Shown one piece after another: positions 3,813-47,219 of a DNA stretch of 48,603 nt (position 1 is the stretch's first letter; the number at the start of each line of letters is the position of its first letter). The stretch is from a virus. The stretch is taken from the IMG/VR virus record IMGVR_UViG_3300046714_000420, positions 1-48,603 of that record; one strand, written 5' to 3'. Below the pieces are notes generated by a model. That model searched no databases, was not told the origin of the DNA, and saw only the letters and a list, made by a program, of their open reading frames with translations. The position numbers and the translations under genes were made by a program.

Positions 3813-4504
3813 CCACATCGACGAGAGACCGCGCTCTCACCCCACCCGAGATCACCGATCGCACCGACGTCTTGCTCTCCCTCTTGGATGACCAAGACCA
3901 GATCCGCTACCGCATCCGGGCCAGCCGGGACGAGCTCCGGGAGTGGCGCGTAGAGGCGCGCAACCTCGCTGCCCGGATCGACCAGGTGAGGCAGGAGATC
4001 CGGTCAGGGGTGGTGGTGGAGAGTGCCCAGCCGGAGTTGCCGCACATGGAGAGGCCGCACGTCTCGTATCCCACGGAGACGGTAGAAGAGACCCGCGCGA
4101 GAGAGGCCCTGTTCAGCGGCATCGACGGCTCTTCCGACGAGCCCGACCCGGAGACAGACCCGAAACCCGCTCCACCGCCCGACAAGTTCTTCGAACTCTA
4201 CCCGCCCGTCCGGACCCACCACGAACTCCGGGACCGGCTACATCTCGCGCTCACCGCAGCGGAATACGCCAAGCTGGGTCCAGAGAGCGTCGAGTCCTGG
4301 CACCCGGACACGGGCAGATTCCAAGGGGTGGACTGGTGGTGCCGAGTGGAGATCGCTCACGCCGAGTCGGGCAAGCGCGAGCCCATTGCAGGACTCACTC
4401 TGCCGCGGAGAGAGTCGATGCCGGGCGTCCTGGCGCAAGCCCTGGCAGTGAGCCAACCGAAGGCACCACGGAAGAAGGCCAGCACCCGGAAGGGCAAGGC
4501 GTGA
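3809..4504 (+). CDS. Coiled-coil protein of unknown function
   Basis: A TTG at 3797 is also in frame, but TTG at 3809 has GGAGG at 3799-3803 five bases upstream and overlaps the preceding TGA, so it is preferred (231 aa). Residues about 20-65 form a charged heptad-like helix (RIRASRDELREWRVEARNLAARIDQV), followed by a Pro/Asp/Glu-rich linker. A folded C-terminal part contains FFELYPPVRTHHELRDRL and WHPDTGRFQGVDWWCRVEI. The end is very basic (RKKASTRKGKA). No family is recognised. Confidence 0.65.
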   Translation: MTTSTRDRALTPPEITDRTDVLLSLLDDQDQIRYRIRASRDELREWRVEARNLAARIDQVRQEIRSGVVVESAQPELPHMERPHVSYPTETVEETRAREALFSGIDGSSDEPDPETDPKPAPPPDKFFELYPPVRTHHELRDRLHLALTAAEYAKLGPESVESWHPDTGRFQGVDWWCRVEIAHAESGKREPIAGLTLPRRESMPGVLAQALAVSQPKAPRKKASTRKGKA

Positions 4505-4887
4505 GACTCTGCATCCGCTGCGGTCTCCGCCCGCCCTGGAGTCCGCATGCCCTAGCGACCTTGTGTGTCGAGTGCATCGATCCGGTAGACCTGGCGCACA
4601 AGCTCCGGCTCCGAGCGGAGACCGCAGCGAAACAGCGTAGAGGCAAGCCCGTGCGGTTCGACGTGCAACCCTACCGGCCCCACCGCAAGGGCCAGAGGCA
4701 TCACGGACCGGTCCTGGTGCCGCTGCCACTCTTGGCCATCCGAGGGGATGCCATGACGGTACAGGAGATCGCGGCCGTCCTCGGGATGAGCGAGATGGGA
4801 GTGCGCCTGGTCGAGCAGAGAGCGATGGCCAAGTTTGAGGCGACGTGGCGCGCGATGTTTCATCGCGAAGCAGAGGCGGCGGAGTGA
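4501..4887 (+). CDS. Zinc-knuckle protein with a sigma-70 region 4-like helix-turn-helix
   Basis: 128 residues. The N terminus has two CxxC pairs (C4/C7 and C22/C25), likely a zinc knuckle. Residues 85-112 (MTVQEIAAVLGMSEMGVRLVEQ and following) match the pattern of sigma-70 region 4.2, which contacts the -35 promoter element: T..EIA..LG.S...VR..E..A..K. The middle is basic and proline-containing. Regions 2 and 3 are absent, so it is not a complete sigma factor. It could direct or block host RNA polymerase at phage promoters. GTG start overlaps the upstream stop. A true start further upstream is unlikely, since upstream codons overlap the previous gene. Confidence 0.6.
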   Translation: MRLCIRCGLRPPWSPHALATLCVECIDPVDLAHKLRLRAETAAKQRRGKPVRFDVQPYRPHRKGQRHHGPVLVPLPLLAIRGDAMTVQEIAAVLGMSEMGVRLVEQRAMAKFEATWRAMFHREAEAAE

Positions 4888-14500: not shown

Positions 14501-16066
14501 ATGGCCGCCACCTACAACCGGGAACTCGGCGTTTGGCAGCTCGACGGTAGAGGCGCCTACGACTCCAAGGAAGCAGCGGAGCTCGCCCAAGGCTCCGGCG
14601 CGAGCACGGCCACCAGGGGCCCCGATGTGCTCGAGTTCGACATGGGGGGGATCCAGGCGCCCGCCCCCGATGCGCCCGGCACGAGCCCCACGGACCCCGG
14701 CAATTTGCCCAACCCGAGCAATCCTGGCGGCATCAGCGACAACGAACTCCAACGCCGCACGGCCGCGCTCTCGAGCAGCGGAACCCGCAACGCCAACATC
14801 AATCGGCAGGTAGACCCCAACGCCAGCCAAGCGGGCGGCACGACCCAGCCGGGCAACATCGGCGGGGCCACCGGCGCGTACAATTCGACCAGCGACGCAG
14901 GGCGAGCGACCTACGATTACATGCATGAGCTCGGGTCCCCGAGCGCGATCCGGTCCCCCCGTGGTCTCGTCAACGACATTGGGGAGCGCGCCGGGGTCAG
15001 TCACGCGGGGGACGTCGCCAATCCGCTCCAGAGCTTCCAGCCGTTCGTCTCCCCCGAGTCGATGTTCCAGTCCCAGTACGACCGCACCGTCGACCCGAAT
15101 ACTGGGCTCGGACAGACCATCGCAGGCAACGACGGCAACGCTGGGCGCCCGGTGGCGCGCCAAGCCGTCCAGGCGGGCGCCAACCATGCAACTGCCCTCA
15201 CCGGCGGCACCGAGAGCGCAGCGCCGGGCCCCTCGGGCAATCGGGAGGGACCCGCTGCCGCGCGAGCTTCAGACGCGGAAGGGGAATTTCGGGATGAGAA
15301 CGCGGAAAATCAGGCCGAAAACGCTCAGGCCTGGGGCAAGGCCTGGAACGCGATCGAGGGCGTCAAGGGCGGGGACTATGCCCTGTCCGATGAGGCGCGC
15401 GGCTACCAAAGGGAAGGGCTCCGCCAGCAGCGCCAGCTCCTCGAGCACTTGATGGGGTTCGACCCCAACCAGTACGCGACGCAATTTGCCGATCAAGCCC
15501 TGGCCCGCCAGGTCGCGGTCGGTCGGAGCCAGGGCACCTCCGCTGCAGCACAACAAGCAGGGACCTTTGCCGCCATGGAGCAAGCCCCGTCCCTCTACGC
15601 CGAAGGGGCGAGGCAAGCCTCTACCTTGGAAAACCAGCGCCTCGGCGCGGCCGAGACTGCCGCCAAGAGCTTCGGGGAACTCGGCACCATGACGCGCGGG
15701 CAAGATGAGGCGCGCGCTCAATTCGAGAGCAATCTCGGTCTGAGCATCGCCAACTCGGTCGGAGACCTCACCAAGGGCCAGGTGCAGCTCAACCAACAAG
15801 AGAGCCAGATGTTCGCCGAGATGTGGACGGACTTTGCCCAGCTCCAGAGCGTGTACGCCGGCATGGACTCGGACGAGCAGATCGCCTGGTGGCAGAACGA
15901 GGCCACCCGCCGCGGTCAGGACAAGCAACTCGAGGCCATCCTAGCGAACCTCAAAGCCGGCGGATCCATCAGCAGCAAGGATCTGGTCGCCGGTCTCTTC
16001 CAACTGGGTGGCGGTGTCATCGGCGCGGGCGGGTCGATCCTGGCTGCCAAAGCGGGGAAAAACTAA
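14501..16066 (+). CDS. Internal virion (ejection-type) protein A
   Basis: 521 residues, Ala/Gln/Gly-rich and low in aromatic content. The N-terminal 150 residues are Pro/Asn/Gly-rich and probably disordered. Residues 270-480 are helical (QGTSAAAQQAGTFAAMEQ, EDEARAQFESN-like segments, QQESQMFAEMWTDFAQLQ). The end is a hydrophobic Gly-rich segment (AGLFQLGGGVIGAGGSILAAK) that could insert into a membrane. These are features of podovirus ejection proteins that form a channel across the cell envelope. No sequence family was identified. Confidence 0.55.
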   Translation: MAATYNRELGVWQLDGRGAYDSKEAAELAQGSGASTATRGPDVLEFDMGGIQAPAPDAPGTSPTDPGNLPNPSNPGGISDNELQRRTAALSSSGTRNANINRQVDPNASQAGGTTQPGNIGGATGAYNSTSDAGRATYDYMHELGSPSAIRSPRGLVNDIGERAGVSHAGDVANPLQSFQPFVSPESMFQSQYDRTVDPNTGLGQTIAGNDGNAGRPVARQAVQAGANHATALTGGTESAAPGPSGNREGPAAARASDAEGEFRDENAENQAENAQAWGKAWNAIEGVKGGDYALSDEARGYQREGLRQQRQLLEHLMGFDPNQYATQFADQALARQVAVGRSQGTSAAAQQAGTFAAMEQAPSLYAEGARQASTLENQRLGAAETAAKSFGELGTMTRGQDEARAQFESNLGLSIANSVGDLTKGQVQLNQQESQMFAEMWTDFAQLQSVYAGMDSDEQIAWWQNEATRRGQDKQLEAILANLKAGGSISSKDLVAGLFQLGGGVIGAGGSILAAKAGKN

Positions 16067-23859: not shown

Positions 23860-25053
23860 TTGGCAGATCCAGCAACCTTTGCAGCGAGAGTCTCCGCTGC
23901 ATCCTCGATGAGTCCCGCTACCCCAATAGCGGCCCCCGCGACGTCCGGCTCGTCCGCAGCATCGAGCCCCGCAGCGGCGGCTGGCTCATCACCGACGTCT
24001 ACGGGAAGCGACGCTGGCACCTCGAGCGAAGCGCCTCCGGAGACGCCAGCGGCCGAGAGCGCGCCGGCTGAAGCGACCGACGCCGAGTCCAGCGGCACCT
24101 ACGGCTCGGACAAGGAACGCATCGACGCGGCCGTGCTCGCGCTCGAGAAGGACGATCTCGACGGAGCAGTCAAAGCCCTGGGACGGGACGTGAAGCTCAA
24201 GGGCGTCACCACCAAGGCCTTCAAGGCGTTATCGGTCAGGGAACGCAAACACGCCGAGCGGGTGAGGCGCGATCAGGACATGATCGCCAAGGCCAAGACG
24301 GAGCTCCAGGCGGATAGCGCGCGCGCGTCCAATCTGCTCCGGCACACGGAACAGAAATTCGGCTGGGTCGCCAAGGCCGAACAGGCCTGGGAGGACGGCC
24401 GCTATGTGGACTTTGCCAAAGCCGTCGAGCGCATGGCCAAGGGTTCGAGCCTGGCCACCATCACCCAGCGGATCGCCTCTGCGGGCATGGGCAAGACCGA
24501 GCCGGCGACCCCAGAAGAACGAGCGCTCGCCGAGTCCCGGGCAACACTGAAGGCCGAGCGGGACGCCTTCGAGAAGCAAAAGGCCGACGAGAAAGCCGCG
24601 GCCGAGAAAGCCAAGGGCCAGCAGTCGATCTCGGAGAAGCGCGCCACGGCCTTGGGCAAGTTCGCGGCCACCCACAAGGCGCACCCGTTCCTCAAGAACC
24701 CGGACGACCCCGAGGGGCCCGACCCGGATGCGCTCGCTGAAGCGTTCCAGGCGTACGAGCAGTCCTGGAAAAACGGCCGTTTCGAGAAGACCCCCAAGCA
24801 GGTGCTCGACGAGCTGCACGCGCGCGAGGTGCGGAAATTGAAGCGCCTCGGCATTACCCCCGCCGCGGCGGCGCAAGCGGCTCCGGTCGCCAAGGCGGGG
24901 ACCTCTACCGGAAAGCCTCCGCCCAAGCCTCGCTTGGCCGAGCCGCCCAAGACCGCGGGCGGCAAGCGCCCGTCGCTCGACGATACGAGGGAGTCCAGGA
25001 TCGCTCTGGCCCGACGCATGACCGAGCAGCAGACGCGGGGGATGAGACCGTGA
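23860..25053 (+). CDS. Probable capsid scaffolding protein
   Basis: 397 residues from TTG 23860. The first 80 residues are Ala/Ser/Thr/Pro-rich and disordered. The middle is charged helix (ERIDAAVLALEKDDLDGAVK, RALAESRATLKAERDAFEKQ and an Ala/Lys/Glu coiled coil). The C terminus is basic (KRPSLDDTRESRIALARRMT). This is the usual profile of phage scaffolds, which template procapsid assembly and bind coat through a basic C-terminal segment. The position between portal and terminase supports it, although the capsid gene is 7 kb away. Confidence 0.65.
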   Translation: MADPATFAARVSAASSMSPATPIAAPATSGSSAASSPAAAAGSSPTSTGSDAGTSSEAPPETPAAESAPAEATDAESSGTYGSDKERIDAAVLALEKDDLDGAVKALGRDVKLKGVTTKAFKALSVRERKHAERVRRDQDMIAKAKTELQADSARASNLLRHTEQKFGWVAKAEQAWEDGRYVDFAKAVERMAKGSSLATITQRIASAGMGKTEPATPEERALAESRATLKAERDAFEKQKADEKAAAEKAKGQQSISEKRATALGKFAATHKAHPFLKNPDDPEGPDPDALAEAFQAYEQSWKNGRFEKTPKQVLDELHAREVRKLKRLGITPAAAAQAAPVAKAGTSTGKPPPKPRLAEPPKTAGGKRPSLDDTRESRIALARRMTEQQTRGMRP

Positions 25054-38156: not shown

Positions 38157-40817
38157 ATGGCTGCCCGGTTCCGACCTCCGCGCGACGTCCCGTTCATCGG
38201 GGCGGATGCTCTCTCGCAGGCGCGCTTTAACTCGTGGCTACGGGTCGCGCTTTCGGAGATCGCCGAGGACCTGGCGCAAATCTCCGCCGTCGATCCGCCG
38301 GGCACGGTGGCGCAAGAACGGATCGAGCTGCCCGCCGGGGGCCAGCGCCGCGTCTCGCCCTCGTCCGCGGGTCTGGCGGTGGTGTTGCCGTGCCCCCAAC
38401 CGGACAACGCCGGGGCCATCTCGCGGATTTTCATCGAGAGCCCCACCGGACAGGTAACGGTGGTGGCTGCGCCGGGGACGGGACCCGACGGCAAGATCTT
38501 CCAGCCGACGATCAACGGATCATCTCGAGCGACGTTCTCTCTGCCCGGGGTGGTGACGTTCCACTCCAACGGCTCATCGGACTGGACGACACAAGTCGAG
38601 GCCCCGAGCGAGACCGCGGCCTCGGCGGCCACGACCGCGCTCGTCGATAGCCTGGCAGCTCAATACGTCCTCGGGGCGGCTCATCCGAGCCTGCCTGATG
38701 GCAGAGTCGCAACGGACTCCACCGAGATCGATGCGGTCCTCACCTCCGCCGGGGTCATTAGCTGGGCGCTGAATGTCGCCAGCGTAGTCCTCGGCAAGCT
38801 GCAGAACATCGCCACCCAGCGGCTCATCGGGCGCAACACCGCGGGATCGGGAGCGCCCGAACAAATCACCGTCCATCAGGCGCTCGACTGGATCGTTTCC
38901 GACGAGTGGGGCTTCGACGGTTCGGACGATGCCGTGTCCCTGGGCAACGTCTATCAGAAGGAGCGGACCGATAGTTTCAGCGTCTCGGCGTGGGTCAAGA
39001 CAGGTCTCCCAGCGATCACGGGAATCACGGACTTCATGGTCCTGTCGAATGTAGATTCGACGGCAAATAACCGCGGCTGGTCGCTCTATATTCACAATGA
39101 CGGGAAGCCCCATCTCAAACTGACCAACGTCATCAATACGAATGATCTCGACATCAGCGGCGATGCCGTCGCCAACGATGGTCAGCTCCACCACATCGTG
39201 GCCACCTACGGTGGTGGCAGCAGCCCCGCGAGCGTGCAGCTGTACATGGACGGGGTTTTGCTCGTCAAAACCACCATCCTCACCTCGCTAACGCAGACGA
39301 TCGTCGCGGCGGGTAACGCCCTCCGGATTGGACGGTTCGGCGCGAGCTCGAGCTTCTTCTTCCCGGGGGTCATTAGTTACGTCAGCGTCTGGGGCTCGGC
39401 GCTATCGGCAGCCAACGTCACCACGCTCTACAATTCCGGAGTGCGGGGCAACGAGGCCGCCGTCGGGACACCCCAGAGCCTGTGGAAACTCGACGCCACC
39501 GATGTGACCGGAGCGAGCGGGATCGTCGATTATGGCTCGGGGAGCTTCGAGGGCACCACAGAAGGTGGGCTCACGAACGGGGTCCGGCCAGGCTCCGTTG
39601 CCGTCCGCGGAGCGACGGACTGGGACGTCCTCCAGCCCGGAGCGAGGGGCGCGGCGCTACTGTCCACGGGCGGCAACACGGTGCCGTCTTTCGGGGCACT
39701 AGACCTCTCCGCCATCGAGCCGCAGTCCGCCAACAGCCTCCCAGCGAACGCCACCGCAAGCCAATCGGTGATGAGCGCGCTGTCCGTTGGCACCAACACG
39801 GTCGTCGGCAGAGTCGCGGGCAACATCGTGGCCGCGGCCCTGGTCAACGCGCAGGTAGACGCGGCGGCGGCCATCGCGCTCAGCAAGCTGGCGACGCAGA
39901 GCGCCAACACGGTCGTCGCCAACGCCACGAGCGGCACGGCGGTCCCGACGGCCGTTGCCGTCGGGACCAATACGGTACTCGGGCGTGTCGCGGGCAACAT
40001 CGTGGCCGCTACGCTCGTCAATGCGCAGATCGCGACCAATACGATCACCGCCACGACGCAAGCGCAGATGGTGGCCAACACCGTCAAGAGCAACGCCACC
40101 GCGGGCACGGCCAACGAATCTGATTTAGCAGTTGGCACCAACACGGTCGTCGGCAGAGTCGCGGGCAACATCGTGGCCGCGGCCCTGGTCAACGCGCAGG
40201 TAGACGCGGCGGCGGCCATCGCGCTCAGCAAGCTGGCGACGCAAGCGGCGGACTCGTTCGTTGGGAACTTCACCAATGCCGTGGCCGTGCCCACCGCGCG
40301 CGCGGGGACCTCGGTCGCCGGCACAGGTCTCACCTACACGACGGGGGGCACGCTCAGCGTCTCGGTGCCTCTGAGCGACGGCGACAAGGGAGACATCACC
40401 GTTGCGTCTAGCGGAGCGAGCTGGACGCTCGATGCAGGCACGGTGACTCCCGCCAAACTCGCCGTCCTCGCGAGCAGCATCGGCGCCGTCTTCACCATCT
40501 TTGTTACGGCCACAGCAGGCACCCCGGGCAGCGCCGACGACGTCACCATTTACTCGAGCAACGCGCCGTTTGCGTTCCGGATCCTGGATGTGACCTGGCT
40601 CGACTCGACCGCCATTGCGCTCGCCACGGTGCAGTTGCGCGATACCTCCGGCGGCGGCGGATCGGCGCTATCGAGCGCGCTCACGGCCGCGGTGACCGGC
40701 ACCGCGCGCAACAACGACACCCAGACGCGCACCGTGGCCGCCAACGGGAGCGTATTTCTGCGGCGTTCCGATCAAGGGGTGGCCGGGGATCTGGTCATCC
40801 TCGCCGTTCGGACGTAA
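38157..40817 (+). CDS. Tail fibre/spike protein with LamG domain and fibre repeats
   Basis: 886 residues. N-terminal 80 residues (RDVPFIGADALSQARFNSWL) probably anchor to the tail. Residues about 251-430 form a LamG/concanavalin domain (DSFSVSAWVKTG, LHHIVATYGGG, VQLYMDGVLL). Residues about 530-700 contain fibre repeats with VNAQVDAAAAIALSKLA, a motif common in phage tail-fibre shafts. The C terminus (about 740-886) is beta-rich and may trimerise. Two 113-bp segments of the shaft are identical. It recognises the host surface. Confidence 0.8.
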   Translation: MAARFRPPRDVPFIGADALSQARFNSWLRVALSEIAEDLAQISAVDPPGTVAQERIELPAGGQRRVSPSSAGLAVVLPCPQPDNAGAISRIFIESPTGQVTVVAAPGTGPDGKIFQPTINGSSRATFSLPGVVTFHSNGSSDWTTQVEAPSETAASAATTALVDSLAAQYVLGAAHPSLPDGRVATDSTEIDAVLTSAGVISWALNVASVVLGKLQNIATQRLIGRNTAGSGAPEQITVHQALDWIVSDEWGFDGSDDAVSLGNVYQKERTDSFSVSAWVKTGLPAITGITDFMVLSNVDSTANNRGWSLYIHNDGKPHLKLTNVINTNDLDISGDAVANDGQLHHIVATYGGGSSPASVQLYMDGVLLVKTTILTSLTQTIVAAGNALRIGRFGASSSFFFPGVISYVSVWGSALSAANVTTLYNSGVRGNEAAVGTPQSLWKLDATDVTGASGIVDYGSGSFEGTTEGGLTNGVRPGSVAVRGATDWDVLQPGARGAALLSTGGNTVPSFGALDLSAIEPQSANSLPANATASQSVMSALSVGTNTVVGRVAGNIVAAALVNAQVDAAAAIALSKLATQSANTVVANATSGTAVPTAVAVGTNTVLGRVAGNIVAATLVNAQIATNTITATTQAQMVANTVKSNATAGTANESDLAVGTNTVVGRVAGNIVAAALVNAQVDAAAAIALSKLATQAADSFVGNFTNAVAVPTARAGTSVAGTGLTYTTGGTLSVSVPLSDGDKGDITVASSGASWTLDAGTVTPAKLAVLASSIGAVFTIFVTATAGTPGSADDVTIYSSNAPFAFRILDVTWLDSTAIALATVQLRDTSGGGGSALSSALTAAVTGTARNNDTQTRTVAANGSVFLRRSDQGVAGDLVILAVRT
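39786..39898 (+). repeat. Exact 113-bp direct repeat in tail fibre gene (copy 1)
   Basis: Identical to 40131-40243, offset 345 bp (115 codons), so the reading frame is kept. Codes for residues about 544-581. A diverged third copy lies between them around 39956-40045. Confidence 0.9.
40131..40243 (+). repeat. Exact 113-bp direct repeat in tail fibre gene (copy 2)
   Basis: No mismatch to 39786-39898 by direct reading. Nucleotide identity including silent positions indicates recent duplication or gene conversion. Confidence 0.9.
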
Positions 40818-41378: not shown

Positions 41379-41396
41379 ATCACCCTGAGGGGTGAT
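41379..41396 (-). repeat. Palindrome ATCACCC-TGAG-GGGTGAT (copy a)
   Basis: Perfect 7-bp arms, 17 bp beyond the stop of the minus-strand lipoprotein gene. Shares the TCACCC-NNN-GGGGTGA core with copies at 42335, 43898 and 44733. Could serve as the terminator hairpin of the operon, though no T-tract follows. Confidence 0.75.
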
Positions 41397-41412: not shown

Positions 41413-41778
41413 TCAGCGGCAGGTGGTCTGCGCGAAGGATCCGAATCCGAGCGTCGTGCACGTGACCGACGGGCGAGACAGAGACGCCCCGTAATCGGAC
41501 ATGCTGCGTCCGATTTGCTGCATCGCCACACCCGTAGCGATCTGGCTCGAGCGGTCCGAGGAACTCGCCCGGTCCGACGAGCGTCGGGCCTCCGCGCGGT
41601 CCCGGGCCTCGGCTCTCCGGAGCGCCAGGCGCACACACTGCGACAGCGCCTGGCGGTCGGCGACGTCGTCGCCGCCGTAGTCGGCGCTGCACACGTCACG
41701 CGCGGTCTCCACGCGATCGGGGGTGGTGGCGCAGCCGGCAACGGTCACGAGGGCGACGAGAGCGAGGAGCGTCTTCAT
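41413..41778 (-). CDS. Small lipoprotein, last gene of the minus-strand operon
   Basis: 121 residues. Signal peptide KTLLALVALVTVAGC with lipobox VAGC and lipidated Cys at about 16, followed by ATTPDRVETARDVCSADYGG. The rest is helical and Arg/Ser/Ala-rich (LSQCVRLALRRAEARDRAEA) and ends in a Cys-containing tail. It should be exported and anchored in the outer or inner membrane. Phage lipoproteins often block superinfection or change host surface, but no family is recognised. ACGTTC lies 10 bp before the ATG. Confidence 0.75.
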   Translation of the reverse strand: MKTLLALVALVTVAGCATTPDRVETARDVCSADYGGDDVADRQALSQCVRLALRRAEARDRAEARRSSDRASSSDRSSQIATGVAMQQIGRSMSDYGASLSRPSVTCTTLGFGSFAQTTCR

Positions 41779-41821
41779 GCCCCGGGAGAACGTCCTTCGG
41801 GCGCCTACCTTGAAGGAAAAA

Positions 41822-42124
41822 TCACCGGTTCGATTTGGTCGGGCGCCAGCTCATCTCCCCGGTCTCCGGCTTGGTGTAGGGCTCCCATTTCGCCCACTGG
41901 TCGGAGCGCACCTTGAACCACAAGGCGAGGCCGAGGATGCTGAAGAGCGCGGGCCAGCCGAGGGTGTGAGGCATCAGGACGGCAGCGAAAACGACCACGA
42001 GCATCGCGCCCAAGATGATTCGCTGCTGGACGTCGGCCTTCCGGGCCTTCTGGGTCGCGTAGGCGCGGCGATTGACCTTGCCGGTGGGGTTGGGTCGGGC
42101 GTGGTAGGTGTCGGAGAAGTGCAT
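41822..42124 (-). CDS. Small membrane protein, two transmembrane segments
   Basis: 100 residues. Basic N terminus (RPNPTGKVNRRAYATQKARK), then two hydrophobic segments at about 36-52 (IILGAMLVVVFAAVLM) and 57-70 (WPALFSILGLALWF), and a polar aromatic C terminus. The positive N terminus suggests N-in topology with both termini inside. Position next to lipoprotein genes suggests an envelope function. Starts six bases after the stop of the preceding gene. Confidence 0.7.
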   Translation of the reverse strand: MHFSDTYHARPNPTGKVNRRAYATQKARKADVQQRIILGAMLVVVFAAVLMPHTLGWPALFSILGLALWFKVRSDQWAKWEPYTKPETGEMSWRPTKSNR

Positions 42125-42129
42125 GGGGA

Positions 42130-42300
42130 TTAGAGCTCGTCCGTGAGGGTGTTGCCGTCGAGAGACACGCCGTCGGCCAGAGCCGCCGAGACGGCGACCC
42201 GGCGGAGCTGGGTGCGATTCTGGGGCGCCTGGTAGGAGAGGAGCGCGGCGAGGTCATGGGGGACCTTGGGGGCCCCGGGGATGGTCATCGTCGCGTCCAT
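42130..42300 (-). CDS. Small hypothetical protein (56 aa), palindrome-controlled
   Basis: Reverse-strand ATG at 42300, stop TAA at 42130-42132. The product begins MDATMTIPGAPKVPHDLAAL and ends in TLTDEL. It is helical in the middle (TQLRRVAVSAALADGV). Third positions are mostly G/C. The 16-bp palindrome core at 42335-42350 lies exactly 35 bp upstream of the ATG, with CCGTTC at 42309-42314. No function known; it fills a gap that would otherwise appear empty. Confidence 0.65.
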   Translation of the reverse strand: MDATMTIPGAPKVPHDLAALLSYQAPQNRTQLRRVAVSAALADGVSLDGNTLTDEL

Positions 42301-42333
42301 GCCCCACAGAACGGCACTCCGCCTCCCGTCTCG

Positions 42334-42351
42334 ATCACCCCGAGGGGTGAG
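42334..42351 (-). repeat. Palindrome TCACCC-CGA-GGGGTGA (copy b)
   Basis: Core 42335-42350, between the large lipoprotein gene and the 56-aa gene. Near edge 35 bp from ATG 42300. See copies c and d for the same spacing. Confidence 0.8.
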
Positions 42352-42379
42352 GCGGAAAGCGGAGCTCGTGTGTGTCGTT

Positions 42380-43369
42380 CTAGTTCGGGACGGATATGCC
42401 CGTCATGATCCGCACGGCGCTCACCTGGCTCGCTGCTCGAGAGACGGCGATCGTCATGGCCTTGCTGGCGGTGGTGTTCCAGTCCCAGGTCACGTACTGA
42501 CCCCGGGCGATGGTCTCCGACGGGTAGGAGACCCACTGCCCATCGACGGATGGGCCATAAAATCCCTGCATGGTGGCGGTCTCAGTTTGGCGGCTGTCCA
42601 TGTCCAGCATGACCCCCGATCGGAGCCACCCGCGGGTGCGGGTCGCCGCGCAGGAGTTGGCGACGGGCAAATTGTAGTAGCCGATCGTCTCGAACGAGGC
42701 CCGGTTGGAGCAGCCCCAGTAGGAGCGGATCGTGGGGATGGGGGTGGACGAGGGGCACTGCCCCATGCAGTTGAAACCATTCGCTCCCACCTGGACGTTG
42801 GTCCAGCGACGGCCCGGAACTGCCGTGGTAAAGGCCTCATCGAGGATTTGCGTCGGCAGAAATAACGCTGCCTTGTCTGTTTCGAGGGGGATATCGGCCT
42901 CGGGCGCCGGCGCGCGCACGGGCAACGGCTTGCGAAAGGCGTCCAGAAATTCCGGGGTCCTCCCCAGATCCGCCGCTTCGCTGAAATGGGACAGGGCCAG
43001 AGCCTCTGGCAGGTAGGCTCGGCTGCCCCTCAGGCCCATGTACAGCTCGGCCGTCGTGAGCGGTAGGTCCGAGGACGCGAAGACCTCGGCGACGGGATCG
43101 CGCTCCCCCACGAAGCCTTTCTGCATCACGATGATGCTCGACTCCTGCCGGTTCTCTTCCGGGGCGGCATCGGAGGTCGTGAAGACCTGGACGAAATCGA
43201 TCTCGGAATGGTCGATTTCCACGTGGCCCACGCGCACGGGCAGGAGAGCAGGCGCGAGCTCTGTTCCGTTCTCGAGCGGGTCGACTTGGATCACCCGCGG
43301 CGGGTCGTCGCCCGCCTCTGCGCTGCACCCCAGGAGCAGTATCCCCACCATCGAGCTGAGTTTTTTCAT
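42380..43369 (-). CDS. Large secreted lipoprotein (329 aa)
   Basis: Signal peptide KKLSSMVGILLLGC with lipobox LLGC and Cys 15, then SAEAGDDPP. The mature protein has a Pro/Glu-rich N-terminal part (PEENRQESSIIVMQKGFVGE) and a C-terminal Cys-containing domain (FNCMGQCPSSTPIPTIRSYW, VANSCAATRTRGWLRSG). That domain ends in beta-rich sequence (VSYPSETIARGQYVTWDWNT). AAGGGAAACC is the ribosome site. This looks like a bacterial surface lipoprotein carried by the phage, possibly for host conversion or exclusion. No family is recognised. Confidence 0.75.
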   Translation of the reverse strand: MKKLSSMVGILLLGCSAEAGDDPPRVIQVDPLENGTELAPALLPVRVGHVEIDHSEIDFVQVFTTSDAAPEENRQESSIIVMQKGFVGERDPVAEVFASSDLPLTTAELYMGLRGSRAYLPEALALSHFSEAADLGRTPEFLDAFRKPLPVRAPAPEADIPLETDKAALFLPTQILDEAFTTAVPGRRWTNVQVGANGFNCMGQCPSSTPIPTIRSYWGCSNRASFETIGYYNLPVANSCAATRTRGWLRSGVMLDMDSRQTETATMQGFYGPSVDGQWVSYPSETIARGQYVTWDWNTTASKAMTIAVSRAASQVSAVRIMTGISVPN

Positions 43370-43381
43370 TGGTTTCCCTTT

Positions 43382-43675
43382 TCATTTCCGCCGGAGCGGC
43401 AACACCTTGGCCACGGCCTGAACCCGTACGGTGGTGGCGCACGGGGTGATTTCCACCACCCCGGAGGTCTCGAGATACTCCGCGCGCGCCTGGTCGAGCG
43501 TGTTTCGGGCGAGATTGAACGCGCACCAGGCGTCGAACGGATCCACGTTCATCCGGCGCTGGCGGGTGAGGAGGTAGGTGGCCGTCTGGAACTCGCTCCG
43601 GGCCGCGTAGTAGCGAGCCCGCAGCGTTCGGCGCAGCTGGAAGTGCCGCAAGGGATTGGTCATCTCGTCGATCAT
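43382..43675 (-). CDS. Hypothetical basic protein (97 aa)
   Basis: Helical and Arg-rich (LRHFQLRRTLRARYYAARSE, DAWCAFNLARNTLDQARAEY) with a strand-forming end (GVVEITPCATTVRVQAVAKV). ATG at 43675 overlaps the preceding stop (ATGA). Lies directly upstream of the large lipoprotein gene. Function unknown. Confidence 0.65.
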   Translation of the reverse strand: MIDEMTNPLRHFQLRRTLRARYYAARSEFQTATYLLTRQRRMNVDPFDAWCAFNLARNTLDQARAEYLETSGVVEITPCATTVRVQAVAKVLPLRRK

Positions 43676-43863
43676 GACGGCTCCAGAATCTCGGAGTAGA
43701 TGCCGGCGAGCACATCGCTGCGAATCGCGAGGAGCGCCGCATAGCTCTTCTCGTCGACCGGGAGGGTGGACTTGAGCGCGGACTTCTTGGTCACCGCGAC
43801 GAGCCCGGAGTAGTCCGCGGGAGCGGCCAGCGTTTGGCAGAGAGGGTTGCTGCGTCGTTGCAT
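43672..43863 (-). CDS. Small hypothetical protein, palindrome-controlled
   Basis: 63 residues from ATG 43863: MQRRSNPLCQTLAAPADYSG, then TKKSALKSTLPVDEKSYAAL and a helical end. GTG 43794, which overlaps the upstream gene's stop, is an alternative start giving 40 residues. The ATG is favoured because the palindrome core (43898-43913) and CCGTTC (43872-43877) stand at the same distances as before 42300 and 44698. Function unknown. Confidence 0.55.
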   Translation of the reverse strand: MQRRSNPLCQTLAAPADYSGLVAVTKKSALKSTLPVDEKSYAALLAIRSDVLAGIYSEILEPS

Positions 43864-44018
43864 GCCTCTGAGAACGGCCCCGGCGGGCAAGGCTGGCTCA
43901 CCCGGTGGGGTGACGACCGAAACGAGACTTCCGACACCGCGCCCGAGGCGAGGTCTTGAATCATCTCGAGACGGGGAGCGTCGGAGGCGGGCAGGTAGCG
44001 GGTCAGGGGCCAGGTCAC
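43791..44018 (-). CDS. Small hypothetical protein (75 aa)
   Basis: GTG at 44018 overlaps the stop of the preceding gene. N-terminal part: TWPLTRYLPASDAPRLEMIQ, DLASGAVSEVSF. The last 35 residues (read through palindrome c) are Pro/Ser-rich and unconvincing, and they overlap the next gene by up to 73 bp. The gene may be real but truncated in function, or its 3' part may have been overwritten by the regulatory element. Confidence 0.45.
   Translation of the reverse strand: MTWPLTRYLPASDAPRLEMIQDLASGAVSEVSFRSSPHRVSQPCPPGPFSEACNDAATLSAKRWPLPRTTPGSSR
43891..43918 (-). repeat. Palindrome TCACCC-GGT-GGGGTGA (copy c) with extended flanks
   Basis: Core 43898-43913. Flanks (GGCTGG before, CGAA after) match those of copy d, so the two share about 28 bp. 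Near edge 35 bp from ATG 43863. Lies inside the coding sequence of the 43791-44018 ORF. Confidence 0.8.
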
Positions 44019-44434
44019 GGCGCCTCGCTCGGGGCCCGGGTCATGTCCACCGCGTCACTGCGGGCTTGGTCTGCGGTCACCAGTGCCACGGCCAGGGCCG
44101 TTGCCGCCTGGGTGGTCCGCTCGGCGAGATACCCCTGCATGGCCTGCCGGAGCTCGCTCTGGGCGTCCGCATCGGGGGTGTGCCCCTGGGGGCGCGAGCG
44201 CGAGGTCTCCAGGCGGAGGCGCACGTCCCATTGTCGCCCGTCGTCGTGGCTACCATAGAACCGGAGCGTGCCGTCCCGGGCGTCGGGGCCCTGAGCGTCG
44301 CACACCCCAGCCAGGATGCCGGTGATGTGGTCGTGGCTCTCCCCGTCCTCGGTGAGCAGCAGCGCGGGCTTGCCGGTGGAGAGGCTCTGCTGGATCGCGG
44401 CCTCGACGGGGGCGCAGTTGGTGTATTCGGTCAT
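44015..44434 (-). CDS. Hypothetical protein (139 aa)
   Basis: N-terminal half: helix (APVEAAIQQSLSTGKPA), strands (LLLTEDGESHDHITGILAG, GTLRFYGSHDDGRQWDVRLR), compact alpha/beta. C-terminal half: long Ala/Gln-rich helix (QSELRQAMQGYLAERTTQAA). Starts three bases after the preceding stop. No family recognised. Confidence 0.65.
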   Translation of the reverse strand: MTEYTNCAPVEAAIQQSLSTGKPALLLTEDGESHDHITGILAGVCDAQGPDARDGTLRFYGSHDDGRQWDVRLRLETSRSRPQGHTPDADAQSELRQAMQGYLAERTTQAATALAVALVTADQARSDAVDMTRAPSEAP

Positions 44435-44437
44435 GGG

Positions 44438-44698
44438 TTACCGGTTGAGGATGCTGGTGACCTGGCGAAAGCAGCGGCCCGCCGCGGTGGTCTCCGCGAC
44501 CGGCAGGGGCGTCTCCCGGAGGTGTTGCGGGACGGTGCGTTCCAGAAGCGCGCGGGCTTCCTGGGTGTTGGCCCGGGCGGTCTCGCTGCGGGCCCATTCC
44601 CGGAGGCTCTCGAGACGAGCGCGGGTGTGGTCGAGATGCGCGAGCGCGGCGGTGAGCTCGTCGAGAAGGGCGACCGGGGTGGGGGGCGCTTGGTTCAT
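44438..44698 (-). CDS. Helical protein (86 aa), palindrome-controlled
   Basis: From ATG 44698: NQAPPTPVALLDELTAALAH, then RARLESLREWARSETARANT and a helical C terminus, mostly coiled coil. The ORF is open to 44785, but that extension runs through the palindrome and is Pro/Thr-rich, so the shorter start is preferred. Palindrome core 44733-44748 is 35 bp upstream with CCGTTC at 44707-44712. Function unknown. Confidence 0.6.
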   Translation of the reverse strand: MNQAPPTPVALLDELTAALAHLDHTRARLESLREWARSETARANTQEARALLERTVPQHLRETPLPVAETTAAGRCFRQVTSILNR

Positions 44699-44725
44699 GA
44701 CTCTCTGAACGGTAGGGGTGGGATC

Positions 44726-44754
44726 GGCTGGATCACCCGGTGGGGTGATGGTCG
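44726..44754 (-). repeat. Palindrome ATCACCC-GGTG-GGGTGAT (copy d)
   Basis: Core 44733-44748; perfect 7-bp arms at 44732-44749. Flanks match copy c. Sits between the 44757 stop and ATG 44698, near edge exactly 35 bp from the ATG. Confidence 0.8.
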
Positions 44755-44756
44755 AA

Positions 44757-44996
44757 TCAGGACGCATCGCGCTTCCAGTACGCATCGCGCCTCTCCATGT
44801 CGTCGGCCATGGATCGCAGGCCCGCGACGATGGCCTCGCGGATGACGCGGTCGCGCTCGGGGTCGCCGCTCGAGCGGTACGCGGGACAGGCGCCGGTGCC
44901 GCTCACGCCACCCACGACGACGAGGACCACGGCCTCAGCATCCAGGGCCAGGACCAGAGCGCGCGCCTCGTCGTCGTATCGACTTGGATCGCTCAC
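44757..44996 (-). CDS. Small hypothetical protein (79 aa)
   Basis: GTG 44996 overlaps the preceding stop. A strand/helix pair (DDEARALVLALDAEAVVLVV) is followed by VGGVSGTGACPAY and a charged helix (RDRVIREAIVAGLRSMADDM). Probably cytoplasmic and compact. No family recognised. Confidence 0.6.
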   Translation of the reverse strand: MSDPSRYDDEARALVLALDAEAVVLVVVGGVSGTGACPAYRSSGDPERDRVIREAIVAGLRSMADDMERRDAYWKRDAS

Positions 44997-45256
44997 CTGT
45001 CCCCCGTATCGCGGTCGTCCCGCTCCTGGTCCATCTGGTGATCGGCGCGGCACGCGGCCTCGTCGTCGGGGTCTCGCTCATCGGCCAAGGCCCCGCGGGG
45101 GAGATCCAGCAGCTCGTCGCAGGTGTCTCCCTCGGGCAGCTCGATGCCGTCGGCGAGCAATTCTGCCTTCGGGGAGAGCATGCAGGGGTCCACGTCCTCG
45201 TCCACGTAATAATCGGTCCCCTCGTAGCGGATGCGGGCGCAGTAACGCTTGGCCAT
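44993..45256 (-). CDS. Small acidic protein, first gene of the minus-strand operon
   Basis: 87 residues from ATG 45256: AKRYCARIRYEGTDYYVDED, then a strongly acidic body (LPEGDTCDELLDLPRGALAD and an Asp/Arg-rich end). Small and acidic, it could be a DNA mimic or an inhibitor of a host protein, but that is only suggestive. GGAGG lies just before the start. Transcription must begin in the 45257-45466 divergent region. Confidence 0.6.
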   Translation of the reverse strand: MAKRYCARIRYEGTDYYVDEDVDPCMLSPKAELLADGIELPEGDTCDELLDLPRGALADERDPDDEAACRADHQMDQERDDRDTGDR

Positions 45257-47099: not shown

Positions 47100-47219
47100 C
47101 GCGCTCGCGAGCGTGATCGCGCCGTCTGCAAAATCGATCACCCTCTCACGTTTCACGCTCGGTGTCTCATCACCCGAGAGGGTGACCAGTTGCGCCGTTT
47201 CCGCGGGAGCAACTTGCAT
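46971..47219 (-). CDS. Possible antisense gene (82 aa)
   Basis: ATG at 47219 on the minus strand opens MQVAPAETAQLVTLSGDETP, then SVKRERVIDFADGAITLASA and an Arg/Leu-rich end. About 70% of third positions are G/C, lower than neighbours. It overlaps the end of 46857-47099 by 129 bp and contains palindrome e. TATGGT (47235-47240, minus) could be a -10. It is protein-like but uncertain. Confidence 0.3.
   Translation of the reverse strand: MQVAPAETAQLVTLSGDETPSVKRERVIDFADGAITLASALLLDARLARRRQDRQLPSARRRTYLHLLMLDVAMTERLGGLA
47169..47186. repeat. Palindrome TCACCC-GAGA-GGGTGA (copy e, variant)
   Basis: Core 47170-47185, symmetric, in the gap 47100-47370. No ATG stands 35 bp away on either strand, unlike copies b-d. 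A half-site ATCACCC lies at about 47137. No other gene on the + strand is seen in this 271-bp gap; the weak TTGCAT-N16-CATACT (47214-47241) could be a promoter for 47371. Confidence 0.65.

Follow-up and report, generated by a model that had tools for sequence, protein, structure and literature searches.

Why would one palindrome stand at the same distance from the start codons of several unrelated genes? The question is raised by a stretch of viral DNA of 48,603 nucleotides (nt), positions 1 to 48,603 of IMG/VR record IMGVR_UViG_3300046714_000420, here called the window. The minus strand of its right end carries about ten small genes (41413-45256), for which neither PHROGs nor Pfam gives a function. 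Ahead of three open reading frames in this region, the palindrome TCACCC-N4-GGGTGA, the hexamer CCGTTC and an ATG follow each other at fixed distances.

Together, these three parts are a real, conserved regulatory unit. The reading put forward here, with a probability of roughly 0.6, is that the unit is a DNA operator plus a promoter. A regulator of the NarL/FixJ type, probably the host's, would bind the palindrome, CCGTTC would be the promoter core, and the messenger RNA (mRNA) would be nearly leaderless.

The unit in the virus window

The palindrome occurs in five exact copies, at 41380-41395, 42335-42350, 43898-43913, 44733-44748 and 47170-47185, and there is no further exact copy. A model of independent, identically distributed bases predicts 0.0056 copies for the 48.6-kb window. 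The runner-up among inverted-repeat arms of the same 6-N4-6 form has 2 occurrences only. On the minus strand, the centres of the five palindromes read CTCA, CTCG, CACC, CACC and TCTC.

A preliminary description of this DNA had reported the longer string TCACCC-NNN-GGGGTGA at 42335, 43898 and 44733. It is indeed present at all three places. Two copies were missed, an exact one at 41380 and one with a single mismatch at 47170. With up to two mismatches and on both strands this string has 13 matches, where 100 shuffled sequences average 2.04 and reach at most 8.

Behind the palindromes at 42335, 43898 and 44733, the minus strand continues with exactly 20 nt, CCGTTC, 8 nt and ATG. The spacings had earlier been given as 35 and 9. 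They are fixed in all three units, as described, but these figures are coordinate differences; the bases in between number 34 and 8. The exact composite, palindrome-N20-CCGTTC-N8-ATG, is thus seen three times, against 2.8e-8 expected under the same model. The string CCGTTC-N8-ATG itself is found nowhere else in the window in exact form. With one mismatch allowed, 13 matches compare with 12.15 expected, so this looser form shows no enrichment.

The first of these units has its palindrome 29 nt past the stop of the gene at 42380-43369 (-). Its spacer is at 42315-42334 and its CCGTTC at 42309-42314, and the ATG opens a frame of 56 amino acids (42130-42300, minus strand). This protein has no PHROGs match at 0.1 and one insignificant Pfam match (E 0.3). 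In the second, the palindrome lies within an open frame of uncertain gene status (43791-44018, minus strand), followed by the spacer at 43878-43897, CCGTTC at 43872-43877 and a frame of 63 amino acids (43672-43863, minus strand) that matches no PHROGs or Pfam family. The third palindrome follows the stop codon of its upstream gene by 8 nt. Here the spacer is at 44713-44732, CCGTTC at 44707-44712, and the frame at 44438-44698 (minus strand) encodes 86 amino acids, with only insignificant family matches (E 0.03 and 0.05).

As had been claimed, the proteins behind the three units show no significant similarity to each other (BLASTP, best E 0.29). The DNA is another matter for one pair. Over the 68 bp around 43898 and 44733 the two stretches are 74% identical, and these copies may therefore be duplicates, not independent events.

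Conservation in phages and occurrence in bacteria

A near-identical record, IMGVR_UViG_3300046796_000589 (G002), keeps all five palindromes. Long blocks of the two records are 97-98% identical, and some blocks on the left side 87-90%. Across the aligned right end, 131 of 6460 bases differ (2.03%), and the three units are free of such differences, in palindrome, spacer and CCGTTC as well as at the start. In the minus operon of G002, one more small gene, about 317 bp long (MSYLDKT...; L005 16281-16597), is present behind the 44733 unit, at the place of window position 44431-44438. This means that the operon swaps genes while the units stay.

IMG/VR was scanned for palindrome-N18-22-CGTTC, and all 33 viral stretches returned were inspected. 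Three of them belong to G002 and IMGVR_UViG_3300042981_000154 (G003), which is the one outstanding record besides G002. The other 30 have one palindrome each and are taken as chance or unrelated; none came back in a scan for the full composite. That scan returned four stretches: one from G003, two from G002, and L138, which was rejected since it runs antisense within an open frame. A scan for CCGTT followed by a base other than C gave 2 matches, both isolated and rejected.

G003 is a distant phage. Its terminase shares 29% identity with the window's, and four further proteins are 24-29% identical with E below 1e-9. It has three palindromes. The first is followed by N20-CCGTTC-N7-ATG, the second by N41-CCGTTC-N8-ATG, and the third by neither. 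The first two sit at the 3' ends of coding sequences, and their units bracket a cluster read as four small genes. This cluster adjoins a small-terminase-like gene, a location different from that in the window. The ATG behind the first palindrome opens merely a 24-codon frame.

The exact palindrome was found in none of 11 further phage records. It is also absent from seven records (G001, G004-G009) which are pieces of 4-20 kb where no right-end window protein was found, and Myxococcus phage Mx8 has no palindrome.

A bacterial genome carries the unit too. A scan of 84,980 genomes for palindrome-N18-42-CCGTTC-N7-9-ATG returned 38 stretches, of which two are from a single metagenome-assembled genome (MAG) and one from Myxococcales bacterium 68-20. 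The MAG is JALHOE, 'Deltaproteobacteria bacterium isolate bin.11', 9.8 Mb in size (G023). Its two stretches open frames of 130 and 668 codons.

There are seven exact palindromes in G023, five of them on one 35-kb contig, C82. Strict layouts on this contig are N39-CCGTTC-N8-ATG, N38-CCGTTA-N8-ATG and N38-CCGTTG-N8-ATG, and contig C36 has N29-CCGTTC-N8-ATG. Judged by eye from the translations, the genes behind these four encode one lipoprotein, a pair of response regulators and one hybrid histidine kinase. Looser versions are found at 24681 (N39-CCGTTG-N11-ATG) and 24739 (TCGTCT at N38), and the genes behind them read in the same way as a double-receiver protein and a second lipoprotein. Six of the seven palindromes are therefore upstream of signalling or lipoprotein genes, four in the strict layout. 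The seventh, on contig C2, lies within a longer stem that may be a terminator, and is not counted as a unit.

C82 was at first read as a prophage, which was dropped; its gene content by eye reads as chromosome. It holds kinases, response regulators, two PilT-like (pilus-retraction-type) ATPases and lipoproteins.

How widespread is this? A composite with CGTT matched in 5 of 317 genomes of the class, four times in G023 and once in each of four others; reversed-pattern controls gave 0. With relaxed palindrome arms, 8 of 56 relatives match, again four times in G023 and once each in seven others, with 3 matches in controls. This relaxed search found no arm variant with the layout in G023. From these counts the unit is not general to the class, yet it is far above chance in G023.

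Myxococcales bacterium 68-20 (G022) also has seven exact palindromes, two of which (on C4 and C30) lie in longer stems that may be terminators and are not counted. At C41:138048, CCGTTC stands at both N20 and N41, the second one 7 nt before the ATG of a 513-codon frame. This is a probable unit. Because 68-20 was covered by the same class search and has this one probable case, G023 is probably a member of the Myxococcota. In another genome, G337, none of 7 palindromes has the layout.

The 38 stretches also contain sets of look-alike loci. Four Amycolatopsis loci (L181, L190, L196, L210) have palindrome and CCGTTC at N26, and five proteobacterial records (L178, L186, L187, L197, L203) have them at N23. 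In both sets the ATG opens mostly short frames. Further homologous-looking sets are two Amycolatopsis at N42 and two Enterobacterales at N35.

The preliminary description took the fixed spacing to be regulatory, and offered an operator with a promoter giving almost leaderless mRNAs. The layout in a distant phage and in a bacterial MAG supports this. The promoter was also called phage-specific, and that part is not supported, because the unit also stands on chromosome-like bacterial contigs.

The other option then offered was an RNA hairpin acting on translation. More broadly, the palindrome could form a hairpin, 34 nt ahead of the start codon, with an effect on translation or mRNA stability, or a terminator without U's for the upstream gene. 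It can fold into a stem of 6 bp closed by a tetraloop, with energies between -8.2 and -9.5 kcal/mol, and six of the eight palindromes of the window and G003 lie within 30 nt of a gene stop or overlap the 3' end of a gene. Against this, the distance to the start varies (N20, N29, N38-41), and two of the G003 copies are within coding sequence. The centre varies while the arms stay constant, and no compensatory change is seen, bearing in mind that most searches imposed exact arms. A scan for GC stems with T runs lists 4 terminator-like sites, none of them a palindrome, and Rfam gives 0 matches at gathering cut-offs. The varying spacing, the lack of compensatory change and the Rfam result together disfavour the hairpin, which is very improbable.

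A proposed regulator site with an unusual promoter

The palindrome has a published counterpart. BldM of Streptomyces, from the NarL/FixJ subfamily, is a response regulator of atypical kind, and its homodimer activates what are called Group I promoters. The Group I site, 5'-TCACcCgnncGgGTGA-3', was found by MEME, and DNase I footprints cover it (PMC4125116). Like the five window copies, it is a 16-bp palindrome with arms TCACcC / GgGTGA around a 4-base centre. The setting differs: BldM belongs to Streptomyces and not to a phage, and the accessible part of its description has no CCGTTC-N8-ATG (PMC4125116).

No described element with this layout had been known to the preliminary description. For the palindrome this has to be withdrawn, as it is essentially the BldM homodimer site (PMC4125116). 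For the whole unit, among the matches listed for the open-access literature, by title and abstract start, there is no publication on palindrome-CCGTTC-N8-ATG. Since Amycolatopsis is an actinobacterium, the Amycolatopsis sets mentioned above could be true BldM-type sites.

Which protein might bind? Contig C82 encodes a predicted response regulator with receiver and GerE domains (15227-15847; Response_reg 2.2e-9, GerE 4.1e-8), situated between the palindromes of that contig. It is an obvious candidate. In a six-frame search, no GerE match in any of four phage records (window, G002, G003, G012) reaches the curated cut-off, which is why a host protein is favoured. Weak GerE matches are seen in two stretches of G012 and in one small protein of the window, at 4501-4884 on the plus strand. 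This protein has CxxC pairs and a helix-turn-helix like that of sigma-70 region 4, just under the Pfam cut-off (Sigma70_r4 E 3.9e-5, 23.5 bits against a cut-off of 24.1).

It is conceivable that this sigma-region-4-like protein, or another phage protein, reads the palindrome, CCGTTC or both. Its Sigma70_r4 match together with the weak GerE match speaks for such a role. Against it, G003 has units yet no GerE match at E 0.1 (sigma region 4 was not scanned in G003), and units occur on chromosome-like contigs. A phage-encoded factor is improbable, if less so than the hairpin.

Under the operator-promoter reading, a dimeric NarL/FixJ-type response regulator, probably the host's, would bind TCACCC-N4-GGGTGA. 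Once bound, it would recruit RNA polymerase to a promoter that lacks the sigma-70 consensus and would have CCGTTC as its core in the -10 region. Class II activator sites are centred near -40 and class I sites near -61, positions that come from CRP. If CCGTTC occupied -12 to -7, the palindrome would be centred near -40 with N20, or near -61 with N41. Transcription would start within a few nt of the ATG, and the mRNA would be nearly leaderless. In this way small phage accessory genes would answer to a control that serves signal-transduction and lipoprotein genes in the host.

Several observations fit. Between 41300 and 47500, a search for sigma-70-like promoters with TTGACA/TATAAT-like hexamers found 0, where shuffled sequences give 0.5. 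An AG stands at a constant distance before CCGTTC in each of the five phage units, even where the palindrome is 21 bp further upstream, which suggests a position such as a -35-like contact would have. A sigma-28-like reading, with TAA some 19 bp ahead of GCCG, was also tried. It fits two or three of the MAG sites loosely and the window sites not at all, and is a lead.

The distance from palindrome to CCGTTC is 20, 29, 38-39 or 41 nt, roughly in steps of a helical turn. For ten hand-picked and partly dependent spacings, leaving out the looser site 24739 and two of 68-20, the Rayleigh p is 0.004 for a period of 10.5, 0.0008 for 10.0 and 0.023 for 11.0. Helical phasing is suggestive only.

The same DNA contacts would also serve a repressor. 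In that case a phage or host protein at the palindromes would silence the minus-strand genes, much like the stoperators of mycobacteriophages, where bound protein keeps genes silent. The palindromes do lie in gene gaps, including the operon end (41380) and a gap between plus-strand genes (47170), where there is no start of the unit type. An activator-dependent promoter is a better fit to the fixed 20 nt before CCGTTC and to the lack of a sigma-70-like promoter, and the association of the G023 palindromes with signalling and lipoprotein genes, in six of seven cases and strictly in four, also counts against silencing. Repression is unlikely, though of the alternatives it is the strongest, and activation is probably what the palindrome serves.

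A number of facts weigh against an activator-dependent promoter of this kind. The -10 role of CCGTTC is assigned from its position only. Three of the eight phage palindromes have no CCGTTC-N8-ATG behind them: window 41380, window 47170 and G003:13465. The first lies 17 nt beyond the final gene of the minus operon and ahead of converging plus-strand genes, the second is between plus-strand genes, and the third is 15 nt past the terminase gene of G003. Such lone palindromes may be auxiliary sites, or may serve unrecognised promoters. For strict 10.5-bp phasing with N20, the G023 spacings of 38-39 are too short by 2-3 bp. The consensus centre of the BldM site is gnnc, and the window centres do not keep g..c.

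The genome scan likewise fits less well than it might. None of the 38 stretches has N20 directly before an in-place ATG. Their spacings run from 18 to 42, and the commonest is N23 (8 of 38), with some of these alike in sequence.

Then there are the relatives. The preliminary description had proposed to look for the layout in related phages, with a mixed outcome: G002 and the distant G003 carry it, the latter with N20 or N41, and two phages nearer than G003 have no exact palindrome. These are G012 (54 kb, terminase 66% identical), with one palindrome at 1 mismatch, and G018 (43 kb, terminase 36%), with none at up to 1 mismatch. The element does not track phage phylogeny, which fits a feature tied to the host, or gain and loss together with accessory genes.

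The host, finally, is probably myxobacterial, and the MAG may be near it. A terminase profile matched in 2 of 377 genomes of the phylum. In one of these, G274, two other virion proteins of the window also match, at 21-32% identity, which places relatives of this phage group within the phylum. No palindrome is found in the 20 kb around either terminase match.

Neighbouring genes and known systems

A longer inverted repeat lies at 47138-47185, TCACCCTCTC ... GAGAGGGTGA, and its right arm is shared with the palindrome at 47170. A lipoprotein-like gene at 41413-41778 (minus strand) starts with ACGTTC-N9-ATG and has a half site, GGTGA, 28 nt upstream of ACGTTC; this start is a possible degenerate unit. 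In the middle of the small-gene operon, the gene at 42380-43369 (minus strand) encodes 329 amino acids with a lipoprotein-like start, and has no PHROGs or Pfam match.

Elsewhere in the window, nine large proteins encoded within 10800-34603 have no Pfam match above cut-off, and the five of them compared with PHROGs have none there either. The terminase was recognised by eye and through relatives. A tail-fibre-like gene (38157-40817) has internal repeats, visible as off-register matches to a relative (L005 11628-12091). A tRNA search of the window found none.

The virus probably ties several small genes to a control protein of its host. The operator type is already known; what is new is the unusual core element, and the evidence that the unit is shared between phages and a bacterial MAG. 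It is tempting, and somewhat speculative, to go further. There might be an undescribed promoter class in Myxococcota-like bacteria, in which the core element CCGTTC precedes a leaderless ATG by about 8 nt and a BldM-like response-regulator palindrome lies upstream at two, three or four helical turns. It would govern host signalling genes and would have been captured by unrelated phage accessory genes, coupling infection to a developmental or motility decision of the host.

If the operator-promoter reading is right, the phage senses the state of its host, uncultured and probably a myxobacterium, through a response-regulator site. Phage sequence would then bring to light a small regulon of the host together with an unusual promoter core, which would be hard to find from the host genome alone. 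This would make a testable link between BldM-like regulators outside the Actinobacteria, leaderless expression and phage accessory genes.

Phages are known to use arrangements of this sort. The promoters served by Mu C and by P2 Ogr/Delta depend on an activator bound to an inverted repeat, which replaces the -35 box. As in the window, a promoter that is poor in other respects has an inverted repeat upstream at a constant distance. Their activators are phage-encoded however, and their sites unrelated, whereas the unit described here is also found on chromosome-like bacterial contigs.

Phage phi29 has binding sites for Spo0A, which represses early phi29 promoters. There too a phage genome carries sites for a developmental response regulator of its host, as is predicted for the window virus. 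The differences are that Spo0A acts by repression, belongs to another regulator family, and works without a fixed core element.

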